In this document: piece by piece, positions 13,972-28,485 of the stretch
How positions within the stretch are numbered: position 1 is the first letter of the stretch
Layout: each line of letters begins with the position of its first letter
Assembly: GCF_001544015.1 (NCBI RefSeq)
Contig: NZ_AP014924.1
Span: 1,984,001-2,048,000 of the forward strand
DNA from: Limnochorda pilosa
GTDB lineage: Bacteria; Bacillota; Limnochordia; Limnochordales; Limnochordaceae
Length of the DNA stretch: 64,000 bases
Direction: 5' to 3'
Position numbers and translations under genes: made by a program
The notes under the pieces: model-generated
What the model was told of the DNA's origin: nothing
Databases searched by the model: none
Seen by the model: only the letters and a program-made list of their open reading frames with translations

Positions 13972-14469
13972 CTACGTCGACGGAGCAGAAACCGTGACAG
14001 TTACCGTGCCCTCGTAGCCACCGGCCGCAACAGAGGCGAGGTCCTTCACCACGAAGGATACGTCGACGGTGCCAAGGTAGGTGGCATCATGGGGTCCCGA
14101 CGAGAGGGACAGCGAGCCCCTGGAGGAGTCCCAAGTAAAGCCGAACCCCGTGGACGAGAACGTGTAGGTGGGCTGCTGCCCTGCAATCTGACCGCCAGTC
14201 AGGGTGACGTCCACGCTAGTGTTGGTGTGCAGGCCAACGGTCACCCCGCTAGCCGTAGCGATGTACTCCCAGCCCCCACCCGTGTAAGCATCGTTGACGG
14301 TGAAGTTGAGGTCAACCGACTCGGGCAGCGTCAGCGCGGCGTAGGCCGCGACGTTTGCATGGATCACGATGTCGTCTTCCCTGAGTTCCGGTGACTCTGC
14401 TGCAGCCGATCCGCTGAGCAGGAACAGCGCCATGGCCAACCCGGTGAGACCCGTCAGCCACTTCTTCAC
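13972..14469 (-). CDS. secreted small beta-sandwich protein (cluster subunit A)
   Basis: This 165-residue protein has a signal peptide (MKKWLTGLTGLAMALFLLSG, cleavage after SAAA). The mature part follows a pattern shared across this cluster: IVIHANVAAYAALTLPESV, then VTVGLHTNTSVDVTLTGG (an N-T plus alternating beta residues), and a C-terminal AGGYEGTVTVTVSAPST. The ending recalls subunits of surface fibres (spore-coat-U or WxL-like), but I claim only a resemblance. AGGAGG lies 8 bases before the GTG start. It is probably in an operon behind the decayed subunit B, 97 bases upstream. Confidence 0.75.
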   Translation of the reverse strand: MKKWLTGLTGLAMALFLLSGSAAAESPELREDDIVIHANVAAYAALTLPESVDLNFTVNDAYTGGGWEYIATASGVTVGLHTNTSVDVTLTGGQIAGQQPTYTFSSTGFGFTWDSSRGSLSLSSGPHDATYLGTVDVSFVVKDLASVAAGGYEGTVTVTVSAPST

Positions 14470-14566
14470 GATTCGTTCCTCCTTGGGATGGTTCCGTTCT
14501 CCTGTACTGGCTTGCTACCTGACCTGGAACCGGGCCGCTCCGCACGCGAGCGATCACCTACCGGCT

Positions 14567-15138
14567 TCACGACCCTGCCGAGACCGTGAGCGTCAGCGTG
14601 GTCGACATGGCTCCGGCCTCGACCGTCGACAGGTCCTCAACCCCGAAGGCACTGGCGAAGAAACGATATCAGTCCCATTGCTGGGGCCACTGATTCTGTC
14701 GAAGAAGCCAGGGGCGGCTGACCGATGGGAGATGACCTCACCCAGGGACTCCGCCGGACGCCAGAGCACGTAGAGCGCATCCACCTGGCCTTCTTGGTAC
14801 GCCCCACCGCTCATGTGGAGCGAGACCGGCGTGTTCGCCTGGACGGTGAAGCGCTGCAGATCCGAGTCCCACGGCCATCCGCCCAACCATCCGTAGATCC
14901 ACGGGAGATCACCTGGCGGCGTCACCGAACTGAATGGGTCAGGCAACCCGCTGTGCCAGTCAACGACCTCGTACGTCACGCTCCATGAGCTGGGTTGGAC
15001 CATCACCTGGGCGTAGGGCTGCACGCTCGCCTGCAACTGGATCGTCCCCGCAGCGAGGGGATCCTCGGCGAACGTGGCCGACGTCCTGACGAACGTCAGG
15101 GCCAGGAGCGCCAGGACGGGAAGGACACGACGTGTCGT
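14567..15138 (-). pseudogene. secreted small beta-sandwich protein (cluster subunit B), frameshifted
   Basis: The upstream frame encodes a signal peptide (RRVLPVLALLALTFVRTSAT) and the cluster pattern IQLQASVQPYAQVMV ... FTVQANTPVSLHMSGG. Near 14,663 it leaves frame. The correct C-terminus, ASAFGVEDLSTVEAGAMST then TLTLTVSAGS, continues in the neighbouring frame to a stop at 14567-14569. One base gained or lost explains this. The codon 9 bases after the Shine-Dalgarno GGGAGG is ACG (15138), not ATG. An upstream TTG at 15213 cannot serve because it lies before the mapped -10 element. It may be a decayed gene or a sequence error. Confidence 0.65.
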
Positions 15139-15197
15139 ATGGGTCGACCTCCCTTCCGCTTCATCGCCGTACCGGCTCCCCTGCCTTGCGAGCCGGG

Positions 15198-15229
15198 CTG
15201 ATAGGCCCGCCAAGTCAACGCCGAGTCAA
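15198..15229 (-). promoter_or_regulatory. SARP-type promoter of subunit B/A genes
   Basis: On the minus strand two TTGACT hexamers (15229-15224 and 15218-15213) start exactly 11 bases apart. Nine bases after the second comes TATCAG (15203-15198), a -10-like hexamer. The same layout occurs before three other genes of the cluster. SARP/BTAD regulators are known to bind such 11-bp direct repeats placed about 8 bases from the -10 element. Confidence 0.7.
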
Positions 15230-15309
15230 GGTCTTGCAAGGCCGATCCGCCGGACCTCCTCCGGTGACCCTCGAGGCCCGAGCCGGCGCTGCCGCCGGCT
15301 CGACAGGCC

Positions 15310-16485
15310 TCACTCCGGCCGGACGGTCAGCCTCACGCTTCCCTCGTATTTCCCGGCGGCGTCGGCCCAAGTGGTCGCCACCTGAAAGCAGACGACCCTG
15401 GTCTCCGCAGACAGCGCGGACGGACCGGTCAGGAGCGTGAAGGACCCCGTCGGCACGGGTTTCCACGCGTCGTCCTCCCCGCACGTGGGACCCATCCGAT
15501 ACCGGAGGCGCTCCGGGGGAATGGATGGCTCGTCGCCTGCAAGAGCCTTCGGTGGGATCACCTCGACGTCCAGCGCCCAGCCCGCGAAGTTCGCCTGGTA
15601 GGTAACCTCGAGCTGCGCCTCCGCCTGGTACGTGTTTGGAGCGGCGGCGTGAAAGGTTAGCTCATCAGAGGCCTGAAGGGCCAGGTGAGGGTCCAGACGG
15701 ACCGCGAAGTCGACGTCTGGGAGCTTTCCCTGCGTCGCCGCCGCCAGTACCCCCCGGTACGTTCCGGCTTTCCTCCACGCATTCCCATCGCCCCACGCCG
15801 TAGCCTTCACCCCGATCCAGAAGACCGCAACCTGCACGCCCTTTGGCAAGACCACCGCGCCTGTCTGCCAGTTCCACTCCCGTACCTGAGCGCCATCCCA
15901 CGTGTAGATCACCACGGCAGAGGCGGGAATGCTCTCTCGCCCGGGCCCCTCCAGGTCGCCCAGGACAGAATAGGACAGGATCTCGTCCTTGGACGTATAC
16001 CAGGGGCGCGCCGCCAGCAGAGGGAGGAGAAACTGGACGTCATCCCGGTCGGGAGGGGCTGGGTAGACCGCGGTCCGCTCCAGGTGCGGCCCCAGCACCC
16101 AGAACGGCGCACTCCGTTCCTGGAGGCTCGCGGGAACCAGGCCTTGTTTTACGAGGGCCTCCGGCTCGGCAAGTGAGAAGATGGCGGTCTTCGACAGCGT
16201 GAGGCTTCCTTGCTTGCCCTTCCCTGCGGCATCGAGAGTGACCTGCGAGAACTCGGGGGGTCGCTGGGGCAACTCCTTGAGCAGCGCCTCCACCAGATCC
16301 GTCGAGCCGGCCTCGGCCGGCGCGGCCCCCGCCAGGGCCCCTCCGACCAGCAGGGCTGCCGCGATGCCGATCAGGTGTTGCCATGGGAGGGGGCGCCCCT
16401 TGCCGCGCGCACGCGCGCGGGGCCTGCTTGCATGGCAGGACCCGCCCCCTCGCTTCAAGGAACCGGGCAGGTCACCGCACCGCAC
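15310..16485 (-). CDS. larger exported protein of the secretin cluster (subunit C)
   Basis: This 391-residue protein starts at a GTG preceded by GGGAGGTG. A long basic leader (RARARGKGR) precedes the hydrophobic segment LIGIAAALLVGGALAGA, with cleavage near PAEA-G. The mature protein has a central domain of unknown type (VLGPHLERTAVYPAPP, VVIYTWDGAQVREWNWQ). Its C-terminal beta domain ends DAAGKYEGSVRLTVRPE, like the ends of subunits A, B and D. It could be a tip or anchor component carrying one subunit-like domain; that is inference. It is divergent from the regulator gene and has its own repeat-type promoter. Confidence 0.65.
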   Translation of the reverse strand: MRCGDLPGSLKRGGGSCHASRPRARARGKGRPLPWQHLIGIAAALLVGGALAGAAPAEAGSTDLVEALLKELPQRPPEFSQVTLDAAGKGKQGSLTLSKTAIFSLAEPEALVKQGLVPASLQERSAPFWVLGPHLERTAVYPAPPDRDDVQFLLPLLAARPWYTSKDEILSYSVLGDLEGPGRESIPASAVVIYTWDGAQVREWNWQTGAVVLPKGVQVAVFWIGVKATAWGDGNAWRKAGTYRGVLAAATQGKLPDVDFAVRLDPHLALQASDELTFHAAAPNTYQAEAQLEVTYQANFAGWALDVEVIPPKALAGDEPSIPPERLRYRMGPTCGEDDAWKPVPTGSFTLLTGPSALSAETRVVCFQVATTWADAAGKYEGSVRLTVRPE

Positions 16486-16573
16486 GCGCCCCCACCTCCC
16501 ACCCCGGCAGGCCGGCCGGCCCGAACACACGCGCCCCGCCGGTTCGCTCGAGGCTCCGAACGAGCCCGAAGGC

Positions 16574-16605
16574 ACCTTACGCGCGACGAGTCAATCGAGA
16601 GTCAA
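16574..16605 (-). promoter_or_regulatory. SARP-type promoter of subunit C gene
   Basis: On the minus strand TTGACT (16605-16600) and TTGACT (16594-16589) are 11 bases apart. Nine bases later comes TAAGGT (16579-16574). Spacing is identical to the promoters of subunits B, D and H. The leader to the GTG at 16485 is about 80 bases. Confidence 0.7.
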
Positions 16606-16675
16606 CGAGCCGCTACAGGCTCCCCGCATCATGGCGGAACACCCGTGGGGGGGAGGACAGCGGCTGGGGCCAAGG

Positions 16676-16720
16676 TTGAGACAGTCTTGAGACGCATTCC
16701 GGCGAGTCCCGGGCTACACT
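16676..16720 (+). promoter_or_regulatory. putative promoter/autoregulatory repeats of the BTAD regulator gene
   Basis: Two TTGAGA hexamers (16676-16681 and 16687-16692) are 11 bases apart, a variant of the TTGACT pairs found elsewhere in the cluster. TACACT at 16715-16720 is a good -10, but the spacer from the second hexamer is 22 bases rather than 9. This may reflect a different mode of control, such as autoregulation. The rest of 16606-16867 shows no gene. Confidence 0.45.
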
Positions 16721-16867
16721 GTCGTAGGAGGAGACTGGCAGATTGGCAGGATCATGCAGGGTTTTCACGAATCGTGTAGGCGGGCTGGGGAACCCGAACG
16801 TCGTGGCGACCTTTCGGTCGTGGCACAGCCATGTCAGTGCGCCTGCCGTTGGGTAAGGGGGATCGGG

Positions 16868-18202
16868 ATGAGCGAGCCTCTCCCTGTAGAGGAAGGCGTC
16901 GCCATCCGTGGGCTGGGGGCCTTCGAGGTTCACGCGCGCTCGCGCCGCATCGGGCTGGACGGATGGCGTCTGAAGAAGTCCGCCTCCCTCTTCAAGTACC
17001 TCGCGGTCAAGCAGCCCGCGTGGGTGCCTCGCGACGAGCTCCTCGACACGTTTTGGGGTGAGCTGGCCCCCGACAGGGCCGAGCATGCCTTCCGCACCAC
17101 GGTCCACGTCTTGAGGAAAGTGCTCGAACCGAACCTCCCGCGCTACGCCACATCCTATTACCTGGAGCAGCGCGACGGCCGATACCGGCTGTGCCCGGAG
17201 TCGATCCGCTGGTTCGATGTCCAAGTGTTCGAGGGCGCCGTCCGGCGCTTCCGGGAGGCCCAGCGGAAGGGCGACACCGCCGATGCGCTCGAGGCGGCCC
17301 GCGAGGCGGTAGACCTGTATGCGGGCGACCTCTACCCCGAAGATCCCTACGAGGACTGGATCATGGCCTACCGGGAGCTGCTCCGGCAGGAGTACTTGGA
17401 CGTGGTCGCGGGCTTCGCGCGCCTCACGCTCCAAGACGCCGACGCCACCACCCACCACGAGGCCGTCCAGATCCTGCGGCGGGCCCTGCGGGCCGGCGAG
17501 GAACGGGAATCGCTCAACCTCCTGCTGATGCAGCACCTGGTGGCGTCGGGACGGGTCCAGGAGGCGTTGAGCCACTTCCACCGCTATGAGAAGGCGGTGC
17601 GCGAGAACCTGGGGACCCGCCCTGGGAAAGCGATCACCCAGCTGGCAGGCTCCCTGCGCGCGCAGGCCGCTGGCCCCAAGGAGGCCGGGAGCCGCGTCGC
17701 CGCCGACCAGGGCAAGGCCGGATCGGCCGGGCTCGCCCAGGGGTATCCCGCGTCCTCCTTCGCGTACCTGGTCGACTCGGCCACCTTTCGCCAGATGGCT
17801 GCGTGGGAGCGACGGAAGGTCGAGCGGGAAGGCCGGGTCTCGACGGTGGTGGTGATTCGCCTGCCCCACGCGCCGCCGCCGGATCGGGACGGAGCGGCCA
17901 CCGGCCGTCGACCGGAGGCCGCCGGCAAGGACGGCTCCACGACCCCGCCGGGCTCCCTCGCCACGTGGCAGCAGTCGGTGGTGGAGCGCCTCCGCCACGC
18001 GGACGTGGCCACGGCCCCCAATCGTCTCACCCTGGCGCTGCTCCTGCCCTGGACGGGGCCGGACGGCGTCCAGAGGGTGCTGGAACGCCTCCGTCCCGCC
18101 ATCGAGCTGGCAAAGCCCTCCACGAGCCCCGAGATCGCGCTCTATGTGCTGCAGGCCGGGACCTCGCCCGAGAAACACCACCTCTCCTTGACTCTCCGTT
18201 GA
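16868..18202 (+). CDS. SARP/BTAD-type transcriptional regulator with C-terminal degenerate GGDEF-like domain
   Basis: This 444-residue cytoplasmic regulator starts with a winged-helix domain (residues 10-95: IRGLGAFEVHARSRRIGLDG, then RDELLDTFWGELAPDRA and TTVHVLRKVLEP). A bacterial transcriptional activator domain follows (about 110-265, TPR-like: DVQVFEGAVRRFREAQRKG, LYPEDPYEDWIM, EALSHFHRYEKAV). The last 150 residues (RVSTVVVIRLP, VVERLRHADVATAPNRLTL, ALLLPWTG) resemble a GGDEF fold without the GGDEF signature. It lies between the divergent secreted-protein genes and likely activates their repeat-containing promoters. Its stop codon lies inside the promoter of the downstream operon. Confidence 0.8.
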   Translation: MSEPLPVEEGVAIRGLGAFEVHARSRRIGLDGWRLKKSASLFKYLAVKQPAWVPRDELLDTFWGELAPDRAEHAFRTTVHVLRKVLEPNLPRYATSYYLEQRDGRYRLCPESIRWFDVQVFEGAVRRFREAQRKGDTADALEAAREAVDLYAGDLYPEDPYEDWIMAYRELLRQEYLDVVAGFARLTLQDADATTHHEAVQILRRALRAGEERESLNLLLMQHLVASGRVQEALSHFHRYEKAVRENLGTRPGKAITQLAGSLRAQAAGPKEAGSRVAADQGKAGSAGLAQGYPASSFAYLVDSATFRQMAAWERRKVEREGRVSTVVVIRLPHAPPPDRDGAATGRRPEAAGKDGSTTPPGSLATWQQSVVERLRHADVATAPNRLTLALLLPWTGPDGVQRVLERLRPAIELAKPSTSPEIALYVLQAGTSPEKHHLSLTLR

Positions 18203-18219
18203 CCCGCCAGTGGTTCAAT
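18188..18219 (+). promoter_or_regulatory. SARP-type promoter of the subunit D-chaperone-secretin operon
   Basis: TTGACT (18188-18193) and TTGACC (18199-18204) are 11 bases apart. Nine bases later comes TTCAAT (18214-18219), a -10-like hexamer. The second repeat includes the regulator's stop codon. The spacing matches the promoters of subunits B, C and H exactly. Confidence 0.7.
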
Positions 18220-18275
18220 GGGCTGACCCACGTCGCGGGTGTTCGGGTCGAGGAGAGAAGAGAGGTGTTTCGCCC

Positions 18276-18866
18276 ATGGGTGCACGGTCACAGTGGCGTC
18301 ACGCCACGCGTTGCTTTGCCACTCTACGGCTCGCGCTGGCCCTCACCGCCCTCGTCTGGGGGATGATCGTCCCCGCGGGAGCCAAGCAGGGTCCATCCCA
18401 CGCGAAGGAGACCTGGTCGAAGGAGATCCCCATTACGGTCTTCATCGAGCCGTACGCCGAGGTGACGCCATCTCCGGCGAAGTGGCTCCTCTCCTTCACC
18501 GGCGCGGGACGCCTCGAGGACGGCTGGCGTTTCGTGGCCCGTCCGGCCCCGCAGCCGACCTTCGTGGTGCACGCCAACACCGACGTTCAGGTGACCTTGA
18601 GCGGCGGGGGCGGCGTCGGCAAATACGGGGTCAGCCCTGTCTACACGTTCGCGGGTGTGGGGCAGGGCCCGCGTGCCTACGCCAGCGGTCCTCCAGGCGA
18701 AGGCCTTCCGTACCTGCTGGCCGACATCGCTGGGCCCACTGGCGACGCGGGGGTGGTCTTCACGCTGACGGAGGCCGAGATCCTCGCCCCGTCGTTGAGT
18801 GAGGTGCCGGCCGGTCGTCTGGGAAAGACAACGCTCACCGTCACGGTCATGGCCGCTTCGGACTGA
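18276..18866 (+). CDS. secreted small beta-sandwich protein (cluster subunit D)
   Basis: This 196-residue protein has a signal peptide (TLRLALALTALVWGMIVPAG, cleavage near GAKQ). The mature region repeats the cluster pattern: IPITVFIEPYAEVTPSPAKW, then TFVVHANTDVQVTLSGGGG, VVFTLTEAEI, and C-terminal LGKTTLTVTVMAASD. AGAGAGGTG precedes the ATG by 8 bases. It is the first gene of the operon with the Ig-domain protein, secretin and G protein, which suggests it is the main cargo or fibre subunit. No enzyme motif is seen. Confidence 0.75.
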   Translation: MGARSQWRHATRCFATLRLALALTALVWGMIVPAGAKQGPSHAKETWSKEIPITVFIEPYAEVTPSPAKWLLSFTGAGRLEDGWRFVARPAPQPTFVVHANTDVQVTLSGGGGVGKYGVSPVYTFAGVGQGPRAYASGPPGEGLPYLLADIAGPTGDAGVVFTLTEAEILAPSLSEVPAGRLGKTTLTVTVMAASD

Positions 18867-18965
18867 GTCGTCGCCGCAGGGCCGGACCTCGAGCAAGACG
18901 CAACGCCGGCGTGTCACACGGCGAGGGGGTGGGGATGCAGCTTGGGTCGGCGAGGGGATGAACCT

Positions 18966-20621
18966 GTGCGACGGAATGGTGGCTCCGGGTGGACGAGGTG
19001 GCTCGTCCCCTTGGTTGCGTTGGCGCTCTTCTTCGCGCGATCCGAGCCCGCTGCGGCCGTGGGCGTCCGCCCGTTGGTCATCGACCTGGAGGTCCGAGCC
19101 GGTGAGACGGCACCCTTCGAGCTGATCCTCAGCCCTTCAGGGCAGCGGGAGCGTGTGCACGTCCGCCTCTTCCAGCCCACCCAGCTTCCCACGGGTGACC
19201 TCACCTACGAGCAGGCGGATCCCGACACCTTCCCCACCGCGGCGTGGGTCAAGCTGGACCGGGACACCGTGGAGGTCCCGGGCGCGCAGGAGGTCCGTAT
19301 CCCCGGGCGGGTGGAGGTTCCCTTCGGCGTCTCCGGGTCCCACACGGTGGTACTCATGGTGGAGCCGGAGACACCCACCCAGGGGGGTGGCGTGGCCATT
19401 CAGGTTCGCTATGCGGTGCGGCTGAACGTGCGCGTGCCCGGAGTGGGGGTCCAGGCCAGGGCGGCGCTGGCCGGTCTGGGCCTGGTCGCCAACGAGGCCA
19501 GGCGGCCCTTCGTCCGGGTCAGGCTGAACAATCCTTCTCCCCTGGACTACCGGGTGGAGATGGAGGCGACCGTGCGCGACGCCAACCGCCGCCTCATCGA
19601 GCGGATTCCGCTCCAGACCGAGCAGGGCCGCCGCAGCGGCCAGACGGCGGCCCGCATCTATCCCGGCAGCCGCCTGGACTTCGCCGGCCGGGTGCAGTCC
19701 CCGCTCGTCCCCGGCAGCTACGAGCTCCAGGCCTTCGCCCGGTACGCGGAAGGCCGGCAGGCGGTGGCTCGGGAGACGGTCCTCGTGCACGAGGGCGAGT
19801 TCGCCTTGCCCGAAGGTCGCCTGCTGGTCCAGGTCGATCCTCCGAGTCTCCAGTTGGAGGCCAACCCGGGGGCCCTGCGGACCGTCTCGTTCTCGGTGGG
19901 GAACCGGACCCAGGAGCCCGTGGTGGTGGCGGCGGGAACCGTGTCCGCGGGCGGCGGCGCGGCCGACGTCTGGCCTCTGGCCCGGTTGCGCTCCTCCTTC
20001 CCCATGACCCTGCGTCCTGGCCAGAGCCGGCGGATCAGCCTCACCGTCCAGTCCCCCCGAGAGCAGGAGCCCCAGGGATACTATGGCACGCTCGCCCTCC
20101 AGGCGCTGCCCGAGGCGGAGGTGGGTCAGGAGGGCGCACAACCCCAGCAGGTTCGCCTTCCGGTGGCTCTCGTCCTGGGTCAGGTGCCGGATCCCGTCCT
20201 GGAGTTGGGTCAGGCTCAGTACGTGCCGGCCTCTCCGCCCGGATCCGTGGACGCGGTGAGCCCGGGCGCGGCGACGGATTCCGGAGGACCGGCGGGATCG
20301 GCCGAGGCTCCCGCCGGCGAGGCTCCGGGCGGAACGCTCTACCTGGCCGTGCACAACGGCGGCCTGCGTCATCAGGTCCTGGAGGGGAGCACGGTGAGCA
20401 TCGAGGACGCGGAAGGCGATGTGGTGGCCTCAGGCCTCACGCTCAGCCTCCCCGCCGACCCGCCCTGGCTGCTGCCCGGAGCCTGGGCGCAGCTCGAGGC
20501 CGAGGGCGTTCCCCCGCTCGACCCAGGCAGCTACACTCTTCAGATCGTCCTGCGCTCACCCGATGCCACCCTGCTTGACCAGGCCACGGAACTCGTGGTG
20601 GGAGAGGAGGAAGGATCATGA
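18966..20621 (+). CDS. exported multi-Ig-domain protein, chaperone-like (cluster gene E)
   Basis: This 551-residue protein has a signal peptide (WLVPLVALALFFARSEPAAA). Residues 30-165 form an Ig-like domain resembling DUF916/WxL-associated or fimbrial-chaperone domains: VRPLVIDLEVRAGETAPFEL, then TAAWVKLDRDTVEVPGAQEV and VPFGVSGSHTVVLMVEP. Two or three more beta-sandwich domains follow (RVRLNNPSPLDYRVEMEATV; TVSFSVGNRTQEPVVVAAG; LYLAVHNGGLRHQVLEGSTV). GGGG lies 8 bases before the GTG at 18966. It overlaps the secretin gene by ATGA. A periplasmic chaperone or structural role for the small subunits is inferred from fold and position, not shown. Confidence 0.6.
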   Translation: MRRNGGSGWTRWLVPLVALALFFARSEPAAAVGVRPLVIDLEVRAGETAPFELILSPSGQRERVHVRLFQPTQLPTGDLTYEQADPDTFPTAAWVKLDRDTVEVPGAQEVRIPGRVEVPFGVSGSHTVVLMVEPETPTQGGGVAIQVRYAVRLNVRVPGVGVQARAALAGLGLVANEARRPFVRVRLNNPSPLDYRVEMEATVRDANRRLIERIPLQTEQGRRSGQTAARIYPGSRLDFAGRVQSPLVPGSYELQAFARYAEGRQAVARETVLVHEGEFALPEGRLLVQVDPPSLQLEANPGALRTVSFSVGNRTQEPVVVAAGTVSAGGGAADVWPLARLRSSFPMTLRPGQSRRISLTVQSPREQEPQGYYGTLALQALPEAEVGQEGAQPQQVRLPVALVLGQVPDPVLELGQAQYVPASPPGSVDAVSPGAATDSGGPAGSAEAPAGEAPGGTLYLAVHNGGLRHQVLEGSTVSIEDAEGDVVASGLTLSLPADPPWLLPGAWAQLEAEGVPPLDPGSYTLQIVLRSPDATLLDQATELVVGEEEGS

Positions 20622-22021
20622 TCGCCCGGCGTTCTTGGACACGCCTGGGCATGGCCGCCGCACTCGCCCTGGTTCTCCTCTGGGCCGTCCCCGCCGGCGC
20701 CCAGTCGCCTGGCGATGCGGCCGGCCCGTCGGCGTCGCCCGAGCCGGCCGCCCGCATCCAGCTCAGCCTCTTCGAGACCGACCTGCGCGAGGCGCTCAAC
20801 GAGCTGGCCTACCAGTCCCGGGTGAACATCCTGATGACGCCCGACATCCAGGGCGTGGTGACCGCCGAGCTTCAGGACGTCACCGTCCGTGAGGCCCTGG
20901 AGACGCTCCTGGCCCCGTTCGGCTACACGTTTCGGTGGGCGGGCAGTTTCTACCTGGTGGGCATCCCCGATCCGCGCAACCTGGCCTTCGGCATGCTCTC
21001 CGAGACAGTGGCCATCCCGCTCTACTACATCCCGGCCGACCGGGCCGCGGCCCTCCTCTCCGATTTCTTCGATCCCTACGTCAAGGCCGATCCCCAGGTG
21101 AACCGCCTCCTGGTCACCGGCCCACCCGAGGTGGTGGCACGGGTCCGCCACGACGTGGCTCTTCTGGACCGGCCGCCAGCCGAGGTCGAGCTGCAGGTGC
21201 TCGTCACCGAGCTGAGTGGGAACGCGGTCCGTGAACTGGGCCTCGACAGGCTCTCCTTCGACAGCCTGGGCGACCTGGCCCTGGGGGTCGAGACCTCGCC
21301 CGACGCCGTCTCCCTGAGTTACGGTCAGGTGGAGGCCCACATCCGTGCCCTCGCCCAGAAGGAAGAGGCCACGGTGCGGGGCAACCCCAGGCTGCGCGTC
21401 CAGGAAGGGCGCTCGACCACCCTCTTCGCCGGCCAGCGGCAGTTCTTCCTGATCGCCTCAGAGCAGACCACCCGGCTCGAGGAGATCGAGGCAGGCCTCC
21501 GGTTGGAGCTGACCGTCTCCCGGGTGCGGAACGGTGAGGTGATCCTGAGCATAGCCCCCTCGACGAGTCAGGTGGTCTCCCACATGGACGGCGTGCCGGT
21601 GCTGCAGAGCAGCGAGCTCTCCACCACCGTCCGGCTTGCCCCGGGGGAGACGGCCGTGCTCGCCTCGCTGGATATGGCCCAGGACCTCGCGACCCGCCGT
21701 GGAACGCCGCTCTTGAGCGACATCCCGCTGATCGGCTGGCTCTTCGGCACCCGCTCGAGCCAGGAGGGCAGCCGGCAGCTCACCATCTTCGTGACCGCCA
21801 AGCCCCTGGGCGCCGATGAGACCATGGCGCCCAACCCCGGCGGCACCCAGGCCTCGCCCCCCGTGAAGGGAGCCGTCTCCGGAGCGACGGGATCGGTCAC
21901 GGGGCCCACGTCTCAGGGGGCTCCGGGGCTGGCCGCCGGCGCGGCCACCGTCTGGGTGGGGAGCCTTCTCCTACCCATTCCCAGACACCGCCTCCTGCGG
22001 GTCCAGTACCTGGTCCCCTAG
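20618..22021 (+). CDS. secretin-family outer membrane channel protein (cluster gene F)
   Basis: This 467-residue protein has a Sec signal (ALALVLLWAVPAGAQ). A STN/N0 domain follows (about 48-112: LFETDLREALNELAYQS, VTVREALETLLAPFGY), then an N1-type ring domain (IPADRAAALLSDFFDPYV, NRLLVTGPPEVVARV). The secretin core reads RGNPRLRVQEGRSTTLFAGQ, LRLELTVSRVRNGEVILSI, SSELSTTVRLAPGETAVLA and LLSDIPLIGWLFGTRSS plus LTIFVTAKP. It is shorter than type II or IV pilus secretins, with one N-domain. Secretins form gated outer-membrane pores, so the host probably has an outer membrane. No pilus ATPase or platform gene is nearby. It is the third gene of the operon. Confidence 0.9.
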   Translation: MIARRSWTRLGMAAALALVLLWAVPAGAQSPGDAAGPSASPEPAARIQLSLFETDLREALNELAYQSRVNILMTPDIQGVVTAELQDVTVREALETLLAPFGYTFRWAGSFYLVGIPDPRNLAFGMLSETVAIPLYYIPADRAAALLSDFFDPYVKADPQVNRLLVTGPPEVVARVRHDVALLDRPPAEVELQVLVTELSGNAVRELGLDRLSFDSLGDLALGVETSPDAVSLSYGQVEAHIRALAQKEEATVRGNPRLRVQEGRSTTLFAGQRQFFLIASEQTTRLEEIEAGLRLELTVSRVRNGEVILSIAPSTSQVVSHMDGVPVLQSSELSTTVRLAPGETAVLASLDMAQDLATRRGTPLLSDIPLIGWLFGTRSSQEGSRQLTIFVTAKPLGADETMAPNPGGTQASPPVKGAVSGATGSVTGPTSQGAPGLAAGAATVWVGSLLLPIPRHRLLRVQYLVP

Positions 22022-22033
22022 GGGGTGGGAGAC

Positions 22034-23722
22034 GTGACACGCGCCGTATTCTTCAGCCCGTCTCCGAGCACAGTCTCTGGTGGGCGCACCCGCCGCTCTG
22101 GCCTCATGCGGCGCGCGAGCCTCGTCGGGGCCCTGGCCGCGTGGGCGTTCCTTCAGGTTTTCCTCGGTTTACTCCCTTTCCCGAGCGCCCAGGCCGTCGC
22201 GCCGCCGCAGCCGGATCCCTCGTCGGCGGCCTCTCCGGCTCCCCTGCGCGCGCCGGTTGATGCGGCGCGGTCTGCTGGGCCTGTCCTGTTCCGTCTCTGG
22301 CTGCTGGACGTGGGCTTCGCTCCCTTCCGTACCAGCGCGGTCTTCGCTTCCCCGACCTCGGAGGCAGCCGCCGAGCCTTCGCAGCTCCTGGTGCGGGGGT
22401 TGCTCCTTTCGGCCGGCTACCTCCTCCTGCCCGTGGACGAGTTCCAGGTCCTGGCCGCCCAGGCGGCCGAAGCGATCCTCACCTTCTCCCGGGAGGAGGC
22501 GAGCGGCGGCCTGCGCGAGGGGGTACAGAAGGGCCAGGTGACCAGCCTGGGGTCGCTGGCCACCTATCCCGGGCATCCCACCACCCTCACCATGCGGCGC
22601 GCCGTCCCCTTCCTCACCCCTGACGAGGTTCCGTTCCCGCTCCATGCGTCCGGGTCGGCCACGGCCTTCCCGATCCAGTCGACCCTCACCCTGGAAGTGG
22701 AACCCCAGACCACCGGTCTTGACGGCCGCGTGACGAGCCGCGTTCGGTTCGAGGCGGAGCACTTGGGACGCCGCTTGGTCTTCGACGCCACCCTTCCCCT
22801 CGACCGGACCCCCACCCCCATCGCGGGTCTGCTGATCCAGCGAACGGAGGAGCTCTCGGTGGGTCCCTTCGTGATCGATCGCAACACCCACCCTCGCCTG
22901 GCGGCTCTGGCTGTCACCGCGGAACCTGTCGCCCTCGGACCGGCCCCTTCCGGGGAGGAGGCCGACGCCCTTTCCGCCGAAGACGCCATCCTCCCACCCC
23001 TCTCTCGCGCGCCGGCGGTCCGGCCTGCAGCTGGCCGCATCACTGCGACCGCCTCCCTTGCTCCCTTCGTGGCTGAGGTGGTCGCCTGGTTCGGGCCGCT
23101 GCCCGACGCCTCCGAACCCTCTTCCGCTGACGACACCCTCGGGCTCGTGCTGGCACGCACGGCAGAGCAGCAACTCCTGACCCTCGATACGTCGTGGCGT
23201 TGGGCGGACTCGGCCCGGCTCACCCTGAGCCTCGAGTCTTGGAACCCGGCGGCCGGGACCAAGGAGGGCGTCGCGGAGGGATGGATCGGCCTACACGGCA
23301 CCCTGGCACGACGACTCGAGCTGGTAGGAGGGGCCTTTCTCGGCCCGCGCCCGACCCGCTGGTACGTGGGGCTCTCGGAGACCACCGCCCCCTCGTCCTC
23401 GCTGGAACTCCGCGCGGCCTACCTCCTCCAGGTGAGCGGCGGTGCTTTCGCTGAGGTGACATCGGGCCGGCTCCTGAGCCTCGGTGCCCTCGACCCCGCC
23501 TGGGAGGTGGCGGCGGGATGGCATCCGGGCCCCTGGCGGCTCGACCTCACCCTCTCCCGCCCACCGGGGGACGTGGACCAAGTGGAACTCCGGCTGGCGC
23601 GCCAGCTGGTTTCCGGCGAGAAGCCCGGGCTCGCACCCGGCCTGGAGGCCGGCGTTCGCTACCGCTGGCCCGTGGAGGAGCTCGAGTACCGGCTGGGCCT
23701 GCGGTTCCGCACGTGGGAGTAG
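22034..23722 (+). CDS. exported protein with beta-barrel-like C-terminal half (cluster gene G)
   Basis: This protein of about 562 residues is not recognised by family. A hydrophobic export signal (SLVGALAAWAFLQVFLGLLP) follows a basic region. Residues about 60-260 include repeated beta stretches (STLTLEVEPQTTGLDGRVTS). From about 385 on, short amphipathic strands alternate with turns: SARLTLSLESWNP, EGWIGLHGTLARRLELVGGA, WYVGLSETTA, LDLTLSRPPGDVDQVEL, YRLGLRFRTWE. This is the look of an outer-membrane barrel ending in aromatic-rich strands. It begins 12 bases after the secretin stop. I infer an outer-membrane partner of the secretin; alternatives remain open. Confidence 0.5.
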   Translation: MTRAVFFSPSPSTVSGGRTRRSGLMRRASLVGALAAWAFLQVFLGLLPFPSAQAVAPPQPDPSSAASPAPLRAPVDAARSAGPVLFRLWLLDVGFAPFRTSAVFASPTSEAAAEPSQLLVRGLLLSAGYLLLPVDEFQVLAAQAAEAILTFSREEASGGLREGVQKGQVTSLGSLATYPGHPTTLTMRRAVPFLTPDEVPFPLHASGSATAFPIQSTLTLEVEPQTTGLDGRVTSRVRFEAEHLGRRLVFDATLPLDRTPTPIAGLLIQRTEELSVGPFVIDRNTHPRLAALAVTAEPVALGPAPSGEEADALSAEDAILPPLSRAPAVRPAAGRITATASLAPFVAEVVAWFGPLPDASEPSSADDTLGLVLARTAEQQLLTLDTSWRWADSARLTLSLESWNPAAGTKEGVAEGWIGLHGTLARRLELVGGAFLGPRPTRWYVGLSETTAPSSSLELRAAYLLQVSGGAFAEVTSGRLLSLGALDPAWEVAAGWHPGPWRLDLTLSRPPGDVDQVELRLARQLVSGEKPGLAPGLEAGVRYRWPVEELEYRLGLRFRTWE

Positions 23723-23770
23723 ACGACAGCAGACGACATGCGCGGGGTTCCGCGACGCAACGCGGGCGGA

Positions 23771-24277
23771 TCAGGGTTCTGGGGGCACCAGCACCGTAAA
23801 GACCAGGGTGGTCTCGTAGGTCCCCATGGGGTCTGTGTACTGCAGACTCAGCCGGAGGTCCAGGGCCAAGGTGGACCGGCCGGGCCCTTGCGTGGTGAGG
23901 CGGACCATGTGCGCACCGAAGGGCCGCCACCGGCTCCCGGGTTGCAGCCTCCACTCGAGACGCTCGGAAGGGAGTACCGTCCCCGTCTCCACCTGGACCA
24001 GGCCCTGGGGGTTCGACACGAGGATCTCGGCATTCCGGTTCCCCACGAAGTCCAGCTGAAGGCCGCCCGGCCGGGTGATCCTGATCTGGTCGCCCAGGTG
24101 CTCGCCCTCCAGGATGTCCTCCTCGGTGAAGACGACCTCGGGGGTCCGCGCCGTGAGCCGAGCGAGGTCGGGGATGCGCGCGACGACGGTCACGTAGACC
24201 GTTGCCAGCACCGTTCCCTGCGCCGCCGCCGGCCCGGCGACCGCGGCCCAGGCCATGAGGATACAGGCAGCCGTCAC
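23771..24277 (-). CDS. secreted small beta-sandwich protein (cluster subunit H)
   Basis: Read from the GTG at 24277, this is a 168-residue protein beginning MTAACILMAWAAVAGPAAAQ, a signal peptide without a basic n-region. The frame stays open to a GTG at 24472, which would add 65 unusual residues, so the start is uncertain. The mature part (TVLATVYVTVVARIPDL, GNRNAEILVSNPQG, MVRLTTQGPGRSTLALDL) ends in TYETTLVFTVLVPPEP, like the other cluster subunits. It is convergent with gene G and has its own repeat-type promoter at 24516-24547. Confidence 0.6.
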   Translation of the reverse strand: MTAACILMAWAAVAGPAAAQGTVLATVYVTVVARIPDLARLTARTPEVVFTEEDILEGEHLGDQIRITRPGGLQLDFVGNRNAEILVSNPQGLVQVETGTVLPSERLEWRLQPGSRWRPFGAHMVRLTTQGPGRSTLALDLRLSLQYTDPMGTYETTLVFTVLVPPEP

Positions 24278-24515
24278 GAGGAGTCGACCTGCCCTGGGAC
24301 GGGCGTCGAGGAGAGCGTGGGCTGTGGGGCACCCCGACGCGCGACGAGGGGTCGGATGGGCTCCGACCGCATGAAGACCGGAGCGACGCGCCTTTCCCGA
24401 TGGGGAGAGGACGCCTGTGCTCTGGCTTCGCTTCCGGGCTTCACGTCTTCCTGTCGCCACCACCGCGGTCACCGCCTGCTGGGGGAGGCCGGCTCCCCGC
24501 TGGGCTGCCGGGTCG

Positions 24516-24547
24516 ACTCTACCGGCACGGTGTCAATGGCGAGTCAA
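24516..24547 (-). promoter_or_regulatory. SARP-type promoter of subunit H gene
   Basis: On the minus strand TTGACT (24547-24542) and TTGACA (24536-24531) are 11 bases apart. Nine bases later comes TAGAGT (24521-24516). The geometry is the same as at the promoters of subunits B, C and D. The leader to a start at 24277 would be about 230 bases. Confidence 0.7.
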
Positions 24548-24677
24548 CGGCGGCACGCACGGTACCCGGACGGACGCGCGGGAAGGCACACCCTTCCTCT
24601 CGCGAACCCGGCGCATTGTCCTCCAGTTCGTCCGGGTGCGTGCCGATAGGCAGAGCGAAGGATGTGTGCCCCGCGCG

Positions 24678-24765
24678 CACCTCCGACAAAGGCCAACCCG
24701 TCGCGAGGCGGGGGCGCAAAGCCACGGGTCTCCTGCGGGAGACGGCCGGGCCGCCGAAGAGGGTG
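24678..24765 (+). promoter_or_regulatory. cyclic di-GMP-I (GEMM) riboswitch
   Basis: The conserved core is present: ACAAAGGCCAACC (24686-24698), a CCCGTC/GGCGGG stem closed by a GCGA tetraloop, then GCGCAAAGCCACGGG (24714-24728). A stem GTCTCC/GGAGAC with a TGCG loop follows, then GGCCGGGCCGCCGAAG. The closing helix pairs CACCTC (24678-24683) with GAGGGTG (24759-24765), with one mismatch or bulge. That 3' strand contains the Shine-Dalgarno sequence of the gene starting at 24772. Ligand binding should therefore reduce translation; this direction is inference. GEMM-I RNAs sense c-di-GMP and commonly control surface and motility genes. Confidence 0.92.
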
Positions 24766-24771
24766 GGCTTG

Positions 24772-25257
24772 ATGTCTCGTCTCGTTCGCTGGGCGGTACT
24801 GCTCGGCGGCTTCATCGTCCTGGTCGTGGCTCCGTGGGTGCTTTCCATCCCGCGGGCGGGAGCGGCTCCTCGGGTCCTGGACCGCGACGAAGTCCGGGTC
24901 ACCGTCCACATCCCACCGCTGGCTGCCGTGCACGTGATCCGCGGTTCCGCCCTCTCCTTCGCGTACGACGGATCCTCGCCCACCGTCCAGCTCTCGGACG
25001 CCCTCGCCCTCGAGGTCATGGCCAACGCACCGTGGGAGGCCCAGGTGCAGGCGGCCGGACCGTTCGCGATCCACCTGGCCCCGGCGAGCGCGGTGGGCTC
25101 CCGTACTTCCGGGCCTGCTCCCGCATCCGCGGCGATCACCGGTGGGGCAGGCCGTCACGCCTACCGGTGGGACGTGCGGGTGAGCGTTCCGGAGGGGACG
25201 CCGGCCGGCCTTTATCAGATACCGGTGAGCGTGCTGGTCGGTCTCAACGTCCCCTGA
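24772..25257 (+). CDS. secreted small beta-sandwich protein under c-di-GMP riboswitch control (cluster subunit I)
   Basis: This 161-residue protein has a signal peptide (LVRWAVLLGGFIVLVVAPWV, cleavage near AGAA). The mature part follows the cluster pattern: VRVTVHIPPLAAVHVIRGS, LALEVMANAPWEAQVQAAG, and C-terminal GLYQIPVSVLVGLNVP. The ATG at 24772 lies 8 bases after the GAGGG that forms one strand of the riboswitch closing helix. The long open frame upstream to 24400 is the riboswitch and leader, not protein. Of the cluster genes only this one shows a riboswitch, so its amount may set adhesion or capping of the structure. Confidence 0.75.
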   Translation: MSRLVRWAVLLGGFIVLVVAPWVLSIPRAGAAPRVLDRDEVRVTVHIPPLAAVHVIRGSALSFAYDGSSPTVQLSDALALEVMANAPWEAQVQAAGPFAIHLAPASAVGSRTSGPAPASAAITGGAGRHAYRWDVRVSVPEGTPAGLYQIPVSVLVGLNVP

Positions 25258-25329: not shown

Positions 25330-26514
25330 TCAACGCGGGGGGTGTAGCGCTTTCGTATCAAGAGCGTGAGCGGGCGCGATCGGGGGCGTGCGGAGGCGCA
25401 CGGCCAGGACGAGCGCGTCGTCCCGGCCCCCCGCCCCGGCCACCATCGCCTCCACCGGTTCGCGGAGAGCGGAACCGGACGGCTCCGGGATGGACGGATC
25501 GGCGCCCGCGGAGGGCAGGGCGATGGCTTCCGGGAGAACGTCGAAGGGCACCCCGTCGGTGGCCATGAGGACGATGCCCCCGCCGGGGATGGCCTCCTCC
25601 CGGGGAGCCGGGTCGGGCCAGCGGACGCCCAGGCACCCGGGCGCGCCCATGCGGAAGCCGCCAGGCTGTCCGTGGGCTCCCTCGCCGGCCTCGGGGCCGT
25701 GCTGCGCGGTATCCGCCACCCAGTGGAACCGCACGTTCCCCACCCCGGCCCAGGAGGCTTCCGCGGGGCGGACGCGGAGCAATCCCGCCACCGCACCGCG
25801 CCCGGAGCTGGAGGCTGCATGGCCCGCCTGGAGGAACTCGGGCAGGGCCGCGCCGGGCTTGGCCGCGGCCAGCTCCGCCAGCGCGGTCACCACCTGGGCG
25901 GCCGCTTCGGCCGCGGCCGGCCCGTGCCCTACCCCATCGATCACCGCCACCAGCACCCCATCCGCCAGCGGGAGGATCGCATAGGCATCGCCGCAGGCGG
26001 ACTCCCCCTCGGCGGAGCGCAGGGCTACCGCCGCTTCCAGGGCCCCGACCGGGCCGGGGACGAGAGGTTCCCGCCCCGTCCGGCCGGCGGGCACGGGCGA
26101 GCCGGGCCGTGGCTTCGCCGGGGGCAGGCGCCGCCAGGCGGTCACCCGCGCGCCTCCGGCGGGAGCGTCCTCCAGGGTGAGACCGTCCATCAGCCGCCGG
26201 GCTCCCGGAAGGCCGACCCCTAGGCCGGCGGTCGGGCGGCCCGCGGTACCGGCGAAGCCCGGACCCCGGTCGGTGCAGGCCACCTCGAACCGGTCGCCCG
26301 AGCGGCGCAGCCAGGCCTCGCCCTCCACCCCGTGGTGGAGCACGTTGCTCGCGAGCTCCGAGACGGCCGTCTCGATCTCGGTGGTCGCGTAGGCATCGAA
26401 GCCCATGGCGCGGGCCAGGTCCCGCGCCTGGGCGATGGCTAGGTAGACGTCCAGCTCCCTCCGGATGGGCACCAGGCGGCTCTCGCTGACACCCGCGGGC
26501 AACGCGACGCTCAT
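25330..26514 (-). CDS. RsbT-like kinase domain fused to PP2C/SpoIIE-type phosphatase
   Basis: This is a 394-residue protein. The N-terminal 130 residues are an anti-sigma kinase-type ATPase: TAVSELASNVLHHGV (N box), DRGPGFAG, LGVGLPGARRLMD. The C-terminal half is a PP2C-like phosphatase: CGDAYAILPLADGVLVAVIDG, VGHGPAAAEAA, VLMATDGVPFD, GRDDALVLAV. Members of this type (RsbX or RsbU-like) reset the stressosome by dephosphorylating RsbR and RsbS. The ATG overlaps the RsbT stop (ATGA). It is last in the rsbR-rsbS-rsbT operon. No RsbW or sigma factor gene is nearby. Confidence 0.85.
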   Translation of the reverse strand: MSVALPAGVSESRLVPIRRELDVYLAIAQARDLARAMGFDAYATTEIETAVSELASNVLHHGVEGEAWLRRSGDRFEVACTDRGPGFAGTAGRPTAGLGVGLPGARRLMDGLTLEDAPAGGARVTAWRRLPPAKPRPGSPVPAGRTGREPLVPGPVGALEAAVALRSAEGESACGDAYAILPLADGVLVAVIDGVGHGPAAAEAAAQVVTALAELAAAKPGAALPEFLQAGHAASSSGRGAVAGLLRVRPAEASWAGVGNVRFHWVADTAQHGPEAGEGAHGQPGGFRMGAPGCLGVRWPDPAPREEAIPGGGIVLMATDGVPFDVLPEAIALPSAGADPSIPEPSGSALREPVEAMVAGAGGRDDALVLAVRLRTPPIAPAHALDTKALHPPR

Positions 26515-26948
26515 GGCAGCCACTTGCGCATCCGTACCCGAGTTCCCTGGCCGGGGAGGCTGTCGAGGGTGAAATCGTCCACGAGGGCCCGGGCGCCGCT
26601 CACGCCCCGGCCGAAGCCGTCGGCGGTGGAGAAACCGCCTTCCAGGACCCGGCCGACATCGGGGATCCCGGGGCCGCGATCCGACACCACGATCTCCAGT
26701 CCCAGGCGAGCCTCCCCCTCCAGCACCCGGAACTCAATGTGGCCCTCGCCGGCGTACTGGACCGCATTTCTCACGATCTCAGAGACGGCGGTGGCGATGC
26801 GGGTCTGGTCCACCACGCCGAAACCCAACTCGCGTGCGAGCTCCCGGACCGCTCCCCGGGCGGTGACGATCACCACCTGGTCCTGGCCCTCGATGCGGAT
26901 CTCGATGACCCGCTTGCGGACGTCTACCTTTCCGGCGCGCGCAGCCAT
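26511..26948 (-). CDS. rsbT: RsbT-like serine kinase (switch protein)
   Basis: This is a 145-residue GHKL-type ATPase with RsbT features: VDQTRIATAVSEIVRNAVQYA (N box), VVSDRGPGIPDV (G1) and FGRGVSGARALVDDF (G2), ending in RVRMRKWLP. In stressosomes RsbT phosphorylates RsbS and RsbR and then leaves to activate an output partner. It overlaps the 3' end of rsbS by 25 bases and the phosphatase gene by four. The output partner is not evident in this window. Confidence 0.88.
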   Translation of the reverse strand: MAARAGKVDVRKRVIEIRIEGQDQVVIVTARGAVRELARELGFGVVDQTRIATAVSEIVRNAVQYAGEGHIEFRVLEGEARLGLEIVVSDRGPGIPDVGRVLEGGFSTADGFGRGVSGARALVDDFTLDSLPGQGTRVRMRKWLP

Positions 26949-27277
26949 TCCAAGCCCCGCTCCAGGTTCAGGTCCATGTGGACCCCGGGCAGCTCGAGAC
27001 CCATCTCCACCAAGGTGATCGCCACCGCCGGCCGCAGACCCACCACGGCCGTACGGGCGCCCATCAGCCGGACCATGCCGGCCGTGTCCCGGATCACCCT
27101 CCCCGTATACGAGTCCACCACCTCCAGGCCGCTCAGGTCGATGAGGACGCCCCGGGCCCGCTCCCGGTGGAGCTGCTCCAGGAGGGATTGCTGCACTGCG
27201 GCGATGTCCGCGTCCTTCAGCTCGCCCTGGAGCTCCACGATGAGAAAACCCTCCACGTGCAGGATGGGGATGCTCAT
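26924..27277 (-). CDS. rsbS: RsbS-like STAS domain antagonist
   Basis: This 117-residue single STAS domain protein starts SIPILHVEGFLIVELQGELK and includes the phosphorylation-site region VLIDLSGLEVVDSYTGRVI, where Ser is expected to be the RsbT target. MVRLMGARTAVVGLRPAVA follows, and the length is typical. It should build the stressosome core with RsbR. The ATG overlaps the RsbR stop (ATGA), showing tight coupling within the operon. Confidence 0.9.
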   Translation of the reverse strand: MSIPILHVEGFLIVELQGELKDADIAAVQQSLLEQLHRERARGVLIDLSGLEVVDSYTGRVIRDTAGMVRLMGARTAVVGLRPAVAITLVEMGLELPGVHMDLNLERGLEWLRAPER

Positions 27278-28485
27278 GACCCCGGGCCCACCACCCGGTG
27301 ACCCAGGAGCTCCAGGGCCAGGGCCAGGCCCGAGCGGAGGTCGCCCACGGTCTCCAGGTCCCCGAAGGAGACGCCCAGCCGCACCAGGGTGACCGCCACC
27401 TGAGGGCTGATGCCCACCAGGATGCTCCGGGCCCCCACCAGCCGCGCGGCCCGGGTGGTCCGCAGCAGGTGGTCCGCCACCCCCGTGTCGATGGAGGGAA
27501 CGCCCGTCACGTCCAGGATCACGATACGGCTGCCGAGCTCGACGATCCGGTTCAGGAGCTGCTCCATCATCTGCTTGGCCCGGCCGCTGTCGATGATGCC
27601 CACGATGGGCATCACCAGGATCCCCTCCCACACCTCGATGACGGGCGTGGAGAGCTCCCGGATGATGCGGCGCTGCTCCTCCTCCACCTCCTCCGCCCGC
27701 CGGGCGGCGTAGACCTCCCCTGCCCGCCCGGCCACCGCGTCCTTGAGCCGGGTGAAGGCGCGGATCGCCCGCAGTGCCCGACCGGGTTCGTCCACCAACG
27801 ACGAGAGGGCCGTGATGGTGTCCAGGAGCGTCTGGCGCTCGCGCACCCGGTGCCGCAGGTTGGCCAGCGCCGTCCCCAGGTGCCGGCAGACGTAGGCGAG
27901 CCCGACCTCGTCCTGGGTGGTGTAGCGGGCGGGGCGCGTGCTCTCCAGGTTCACCGCGCCCAGGACCTCTTCCGCCGACTGGATGGGCACGGCCAGCTCC
28001 GAGCGGATCCGCTCCCCCTGGGTGAAGGGCAGGTAACGGGGCTCGGCCCGCACGTCGTCCACCCGCACGCTGGCGCCCGATCGGGCCGCGTGGGCCACGA
28101 GGCCCGGGCCGTCCAGGGCCAGCTCCCGGAGGTCGCCGGGTTCGATGGGCCTGCGAGAGAACGGGGGCCGGCGCTCGGGCTCCCGGGAGCCGACAGGCAA
28201 GAACCGGTGCAGGCGGAGTCGGCCGCCCTCCACCAGGAAGATCCAGACGAAGTCATCCCTGAAGAGGGTCCGGAGGCCGTGCAGCACGCGATCGAGGAGC
28301 GCTTCCCGGTCCAGGGTGAGCGAGGCGTCGGAGATGGCCCGGTGGACCTCCAGATAGCTCCGGTCCGGGCCCGGACGGTTGGAGCGCGCGGGGGGCCGGA
28401 CCCGAAGGCTCCGGAGGGCCTGCCCCGCTCCTGCCACCATCCCTCCGAGGCCCTGAACCCGGCCCAGGAGGCTCCTCGGTCTCAC
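27274..28485 (-). CDS. rsbR: RsbR-like stressosome sensor with GAF and STAS domains
   Basis: This is a 403-residue protein. Residues about 60-190 form a GAF domain (EALLDRVLHGLRTLFRDDFV, ELAVPIQSAEEVLGAVNLES). A helical linker follows, then a C-terminal STAS domain (about 280-395) with ELSTPVIEVWEGILVMPIVG, ILDVTGVPSIDTGVADHLLR and VGARSILVGISPQVA. Classical RsbR uses a globin-like sensor; this one has a GAF sensor, so a small-molecule or redox signal is possible. I chose the GTG at 28485 because GAGGTG lies 7 bases upstream; a frame open to 28566 gives no clear signal. First gene of the rsbRST-phosphatase operon. Confidence 0.85.
   Translation of the reverse strand: MRPRSLLGRVQGLGGMVAGAGQALRSLRVRPPARSNRPGPDRSYLEVHRAISDASLTLDREALLDRVLHGLRTLFRDDFVWIFLVEGGRLRLHRFLPVGSREPERRPPFSRRPIEPGDLRELALDGPGLVAHAARSGASVRVDDVRAEPRYLPFTQGERIRSELAVPIQSAEEVLGAVNLESTRPARYTTQDEVGLAYVCRHLGTALANLRHRVRERQTLLDTITALSSLVDEPGRALRAIRAFTRLKDAVAGRAGEVYAARRAEEVEEEQRRIIRELSTPVIEVWEGILVMPIVGIIDSGRAKQMMEQLLNRIVELGSRIVILDVTGVPSIDTGVADHLLRTTRAARLVGARSILVGISPQVAVTLVRLGVSFGDLETVGDLRSGLALALELLGHRVVGPGS

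Follow-up and report, generated by a model that had tools for sequence, protein, structure and literature searches.

The window analysed here is a stretch of 64,000 nucleotides (positions 1984001–2048000) from a complete, single-contig genome of 3,817,036 bases. At window positions 13972–25257 it carries a cluster of six homologous small exported subunits (A–F), an exported protein with several Ig domains (IG), a secretin (SEC), an exported protein with a barrel-like C-terminal part (BAR) and a regulator (R; Table 1). A preliminary description of the window had picked out these components and had proposed a fibre or matrix whose subunits, guarded by the Ig protein, leave through the secretin. 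The open reading frames that it gave were confirmed at their positions, and a simple gene caller finds every one of them except B.

Table 1. Genes of the cluster, with positions in the window
Feature	Position	Strand	Description
Subunit A	13972..14469	-	165 aa; signal peptide, putative alternating strand at the N-terminus, then a pilin-like Ig domain that closes with its last strand
Subunit B	14593..15213	-	Frame-broken; read by three-frame translation
Subunit C	15310..16293	-	About 327 aa, long type; ORF open to 16575
Regulator R	16754..18202	+	Winged helix and BTAD (SARP-like)
Subunit D	~18276..18866	+	ORF open from 18210
IG	18942..20621	+	Exported; four Ig domains (model), no C-terminal membrane helix
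SEC	20618..22021	+	Secretin with STN and one Secretin_N domain
BAR	22025..23722	+	Degenerate secretin domain and barrel-like C-terminal part; signal peptide from about 22106
Subunit E	23771..24277	-	Type adjoining SEC in many relatives
Subunit F	~24772..25257	+	ORF open from 24400; called start 24763

The ATG of SEC overlaps the stop codon of the IG gene. Among the cluster genes only SEC and R belong to a Pfam or NCBIfam family; these collections hold none for A–F, IG or BAR. R, the dedicated regulator of the preliminary description, matches Pfam BTAD at 1.6e-20, and its homologues carry a GGDEF-like C-terminal domain (GGDEF 1.3e-6 in the L032 homologue). The SARP-like BTAD of R and the GGDEF-like C-terminus of its homologues hint at a tie to cyclic-di-GMP signalling. 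Just past subunit F, at 25330–28485, lie genes that by eye resemble a partner-switching set (anti-sigma, phosphatase, STAS).

Subunits and the four-Ig protein

Iterative profile searches place the intact subunits of A–F in one superfamily. The single pattern reported for the six stands for the intact ones, with two corrections: B is frame-broken, and C (327 aa) is about twice the size of the others while belonging to the same superfamily as A. The C-terminal strand of B, EDLSTVEAGAMSTTLTLTVSAGS, lies in a different frame at about 14570–14660 (boundaries approximate); a pseudogene, a sequencing error and phase variation are all candidate causes of this break near the 3′ end. Long subunits like C occur in at least 11 loci; C itself is possibly two-domain and tip-like. 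Fourteen relatives group as one type that is tied to E by profile and phmmer, F-type homologues are present in eight other loci, and one locus (L030) carries up to six different subunits.

The AF2 model of subunit A is of moderate quality (pLDDT 73, pTM 0.56). Most of its best 50 Foldseek matches in the PDB are chaperone-usher pilins (CfaB, CfaE, Caf1, Csu, PapE, PapG, CupB6, FimI and SafA), and the rest include other donor-strand fibres, among them Pyrodictium cannulae and a Sulfolobus filament; the best E-value is 0.0023, and none falls below 1e-3. VIA likewise gave CfaE as the best match to this model (Z 8.1, 2.9 Å over 114 residues). When a profile of 52 subunits was compared with all PDB sequences, CsuE ranked first (0.0017), CfaE next and Caf1 lower. 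A second subunit alignment again placed CsuE first (0.0046), with antibody chains and other similarly weak matches ranking before Caf1. A Z of about 8 alone would be unremarkable; the pilin identity carries weight because the family identity agrees across sequence and structure. As in pilins, little sequence follows the last strand: 101 of 108 subunits stop ∼13 residues beyond a conserved Tyr. The N-terminal strand was read directly from the sequences, and in only 33 of 88 subunits does its alternation exceed that of shuffled sequences (p<0.05). Comparison of the subunit family with E. coli K-12 pilins by hhalign, against a small and distant reference set, gave nothing convincing. The subunits do not match type IV pilin families and do not resemble enzymes. 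The moderate model suggests a pilin fold, and at the level of fold and weak profile matches we regard A–F as probable pilins of an incomplete Ig fold, the incompleteness being read from the strand pattern and the model.

IG, which the preliminary description had called a multi-Ig protein, was modelled with four Ig domains at a pLDDT of 89.5. Residues 12–255 match WxLIP at Z 17.4 (9i25, 9i1y) and CfaA at Z 12.8, as well as CsuC, and residues 265–524 match YadV, SfaE, Caf1M and FimC at Z 12–13. Against the chaperones of chaperone-usher systems (CfaA, CsuC, YadV, Caf1M and FimC) both halves score Z 11–13. The top Foldseek matches of IG, which were cilium central-apparatus proteins, PrgB and complement, were discounted as multi-Ig proteins with TM-scores <0.3, and WxLIP, CsuC and CfaA were preferred. 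On this confident model, IG is predicted to consist of two consecutive chaperone cassettes of PapD type. Among the 47 IG proteins of the cluster type found here (type I, see next section), the first G1 strand has the pattern RYAVRLxI, with R134 present in 45 and a basic residue at position 17 in 30; at the level of sequence the two are reminiscent of the PapD cleft pair. On this G1 strand the basic residue is near-invariant among type I proteins (45/47), and type II lacks it. IG has no PapD match in Pfam, a profile search of PDB sequences with the IG family found no match at all, and hhalign against five E. coli K-12 chaperones, likewise a small and distant set, gave nothing convincing (E 0.036 over 21 columns). 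With the E. coli K-12 comparisons unconvincing for both IG and the subunits, we speak of a shared fold rather than of homology.

The resemblance to WxLIP gives rise to the main rival of a fibre, which we consider unlikely: a counterpart, in two-membraned bacteria, of the WxL/WxLIP surface complexes. Here IG would donate a strand to a subunit and stay bound to it as a stable adhesive complex that SEC lets out and that never polymerises. WxLIP is the best structural match of IG, Pfam WxLIP_PGBD weakly matches 7 of 36 IG proteins (best 0.0012), and WxLIP is itself predicted to insert a strand that completes WxL (PMC10599100). However, the C-terminus of IG, read directly from its sequence, is a predicted strand with a polar tail and no transmembrane helix, and IG has a second cassette. 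Moreover, two W-x-L motifs occur in only 4 of 108 subunits. The model of A matches fibre pilins, while the solved WxL chain is not among the matches listed, an absence that is not decisive. The variety of subunits in L030 would suit a composite fibre.

The secretin, BAR and the recurrence of the gene set

SEC matches Pfam Secretin (PF00263, 9.6e-28), Secretin_N (2.7e-11) and STN (9.9e-4). On this domain content SEC is a bona fide secretin, as the preliminary description had read it; its best NCBIfam match is PilQ, far below the cut-off of that model.

The set of subunits, SEC, BAR, regulator and IG recurs in dozens of genomes and is therefore more than a chance assembly. IG homologues are found in 50 of the 73 genomes of the class, and a phylum-wide search with the IG profile recovers full-length relatives far outside it; the lineages that pair IG with a secretin include Limnochordia, Halanaerobiales and others. 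Neighbours were counted around the 39 of 63 IG genes with more than 4.5 kb of flank on each side. SEC lies within 7 kb of IG at all 39 loci, the co-occurrence in relatives that the preliminary description had proposed looking for. The two genes share a strand in 59 of 59 cases, 37 of them with fewer than 200 bases in between. Some of the 39 loci served to train the profiles; independent of this training are the locus of Halanaerobacter jeridensis DSM 23230 (L110; order SEC BAR SUB SUB IG SUB) and 20 further loci of the phylum retrieved by an IG match alone, every one of which has a secretin next to IG. Other named hosts are a Halobacteroidaceae MAG and a Limnochordaceae MAG.

The 39 loci comprise 26 clusters of type I and 13 of type II. 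Type I clusters carry subunits in 26/26 and a gene labelled BAR in 24/26; in the remaining two (L084 and L085) a second gene labelled SEC (517 and 567 aa) stands where BAR would be. Type II clusters have different subunits (13/13) and lack BAR, and the gene after SEC has an aromatic C-terminal ending in 10 of 15.

The exported protein with a barrel-like C-terminus reported for the window corresponds to BAR, which also has a degenerate secretin domain. The BAR and SEC families align by hhalign at an E-value of 9.4e-7 over 184 columns and are also tied by phmmer. The SEC segment PLLSDIPLIGWLF, the conserved C-terminal lip region of secretins, is gapped in BAR. A BAR homologue in L035 retains an STN domain, and the BAR-position genes of L084 and L085 score to the secretin profile. 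These comparisons show secretin ancestry for BAR, which by its sequence is a degenerate secretin paralogue that lacks the lip and is fused to a barrel-like tail. BAR ends in an aromatic residue in 18 of 37 cases, against a background of 54/584. A profile search of PDB sequences with the BAR family found no match.

Its tail and aromatic C-termini could mean that BAR itself is the assembly pore, analogous to an usher, with SEC as a periplasmic gate or recruiter of subunits, and the frequent aromatic ending after SEC in type II would fit such a role. We regard this as improbable, since a profile comparison finds no relation between BAR and E. coli ushers, BAR is too small for the 24-strand usher barrel, and type II clusters do without BAR yet keep SEC in 13/13 full-flank loci.

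The preliminary description saw neither an ATPase nor an usher in the cluster, and we likewise find none there. Across the complete genome, no T2SSE protein (GspE/PilB-type, PF00437) scores above cut-off (best 2.7e-5, 23.2 bits versus 24.9), the T2SSF platform family (PF00482) has 0 matches while 13 of 14 controls are positive, and no Usher (PF00577) is detected, though a strongly diverged one could fall below detection. Usher is above cut-off in 0 of 398 genomes of the phylum. Type I clusters also occur in other genomes without T2SSE above cut-off (including G060, G033, G042, G044, G046, G051 and G222), the ATPase-lacking type I genomes all being drafts save the present one; the cluster therefore does not depend on that ATPase.

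These absences bear directly on the reading in which SEC and BAR are the exit of a type II system or type IV pilus whose genes lie at another site, with the IG and subunit genes as mere neighbours. PilQ as the best NCBIfam match of SEC speaks for it, as do the T2SSE ATPases of most genomes of the class, many relatives having T4P-type ATPases. It is largely refuted here by a complete genome that lacks both T2SSE above cut-off and T2SSF. The 39/39 linkage of SEC to IG, the type I clusters of other ATPase-lacking genomes (e.g., G222 and G033) and the presence of separate PilQ-like secretins in L045 and L046 also argue against it, and we judge it very improbable. In the latter two loci (L045:5081-11348 and L046:9005-19609), which belong to the present genome, one without PilB, each PilQ-like secretin is followed on its strand by large RHS-type repeat proteins; secretin and RHS protein are perhaps an export pair.

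Two related clusters lie elsewhere in the genome. The second (C1 about 3008000-3014000; L044:5008-11126) is of type II and encodes two different exported subunits, an IG of 560 aa, a SEC of 412 aa and, after these, a barrel-like protein of 263 aa; a histidine kinase and NarL-type response regulators lie at the flanks of the cluster. The third (C1 about 103985-108405; L131:5985-10405), also found in L132, L133 and L134, encodes a subunit, a single chaperone of PapD size and a protein of 964 aa (863–964 aa across loci) that combines Ig, barrel-like and SdrD-type parts. One relative has an Usher match of 0.0016, below cut-off, and profile comparison of the barrel with E. coli ushers finds no relation; the large protein is possibly a very divergent usher. 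This union of a chaperone, a subunit and a large barrel-like protein raises the alternative that A–F leave by a different route, for instance through the 964-aa protein, and that SEC exports something else. Against it stand the strict linkage of SEC to IG and the genome G440, which has a type I cluster and a single IG-type candidate, and therefore no sign of the third cluster. We strongly doubt this alternative.

A candidate assembly pathway

On balance we slightly favour a pathway by which two-membraned Firmicutes assemble a fimbria-like surface fibre, one that is free of ATPase and works by a chaperone and a secretin, like a chaperone-usher pathway minus the usher. Given the folds of chaperone and subunits, the economical reading is that IG complements the subunits with a donor strand and that the subunits exchange strands with one another; SEC is the only dedicated exit candidate because neither an ATPase nor an usher is present. 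In such a pathway A–F would reach the periplasm by their Sec signal peptides, each as a pilin-like Ig domain whose missing last strand the first IG cassette would supply; the second cassette may hold a second subunit or the exit gate. Subunits would then pass to SEC, at which each new arrival would insert its N-terminal alternating strand in place of the chaperone strand by donor-strand exchange, and the growing fibre would leave through the secretin, driven by folding and strand exchange with no need of an ATPase. BAR would sit in the outer membrane with SEC, as partner or plug, and R would turn the gene set on. We infer strand exchange, polymerisation, export through SEC, the location and role of BAR and regulation by R from the genes and models described above; for exit through SEC the basis is its strict linkage to IG and the absence of alternatives in this genome.

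The fibre or matrix of the preliminary description is thus supported in part. Independent methods back two of its three links, in that the subunits resemble chaperone-usher pilins and the Ig protein a PapD-type chaperone; the third, the secretin exit, is still argued from linkage (39/39 and 59/59) and absent alternatives. The structure prediction that it had suggested led from subunit A to chaperone-usher pilins and from IG to PapD-type chaperones and WxLIP. Of the findings that it had named as contrary to its proposal, none appeared: the genome has no pilus or type II ATPase, the subunits are not enzyme-like and the gene set is conserved. It did not include BAR as a secretin paralogue, IG as a tandem chaperone or the two related clusters.

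We give about even chances to a fuller claim, namely that this is an undescribed ATPase-free pathway of diderm Firmicutes in which strand-complemented pilins pass from a tandem PapD-type chaperone to a secretin accompanied by a secretin-derived barrel, the secretin acting as usher; that one genome carries it in two forms, each with its own subunits; and that its chaperone-pilin core is common to WxL clusters and chaperone-usher systems. The usual view is that a secretin requires an ATPase machine and that chaperoned pilins require an usher. If true, a system that does without both would offer a new route through the outer membrane, and would bear on how WxL surface complexes, the pili of chaperone-usher systems and the envelope of ancestrally two-membraned Firmicutes are related. 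It would also be a candidate source of the surface layers and filaments seen in Limnochordia; one strain of these is reported to have an S-layer although no S-layer protein was evident in its genome (PMC11456536).

Comparison with known systems

With chaperone-usher systems (CFA/I, Csu, Caf1) the cluster shares pilin-like Ig subunits that are exported by Sec, have their last strand at the C-terminal end and carry a putative alternating strand at the N-terminus, a chaperone of PapD fold (at fold level) encoded beside them, and the lack of an ATPase. It differs in that a secretin and a secretin paralogue stand in place of a recognisable usher, the chaperone has two PapD cassettes in a row, and no protein matches PapD or fimbrial Pfam families at the sequence level. 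A secretin with STN and Secretin_N domains is shared with type IV pili and type II secretion; here, in contrast, the genome lacks an extension ATPase and a platform protein, and the subunits are unlike type IV pilins. Donor-strand fibres without an usher offer a further comparison, the model of A also matching Pyrodictium cannulae and the Sulfolobus filament. Type V pili are likewise donor-strand fibres built without an usher. We know of no PapD chaperone or secretin in archaeal threads, cannulae or type V pili.

For Halanaerobiales, T4P secretins and some T2SS-type operons have been described, but not this gene set (PMC5007114; PMC2626281), and we found no description of a chaperone-secretin system in the open-access literature. 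The combination of pilin-like subunits, a double chaperone and a candidate secretin exit thus appears to be undescribed there. We do not file the cluster under chaperone-usher systems (no usher), type II secretion or type IV pili (no ATPase or platform) or WxLIP clusters (no helix or WxL motifs).

The WxL/WxLIP clusters of Gram-positive Firmicutes nonetheless provide, in WxLIP (DUF916 and DUF3324), the fold closest to the first IG cassette. Both systems combine small beta-sandwich proteins with a co-encoded Ig partner predicted to donate a strand, which has two Ig domains and a membrane helix in WxLIP, compared with four and no helix in IG. The cluster differs in lacking WxL motifs, in having a secretin and in its two-membraned hosts, and WxLIP is not described as fibre-forming (PMC10599100). 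The predicted insertion of a WxLIP strand into WxL would follow the same principle as the complementation of pilins by PapD.
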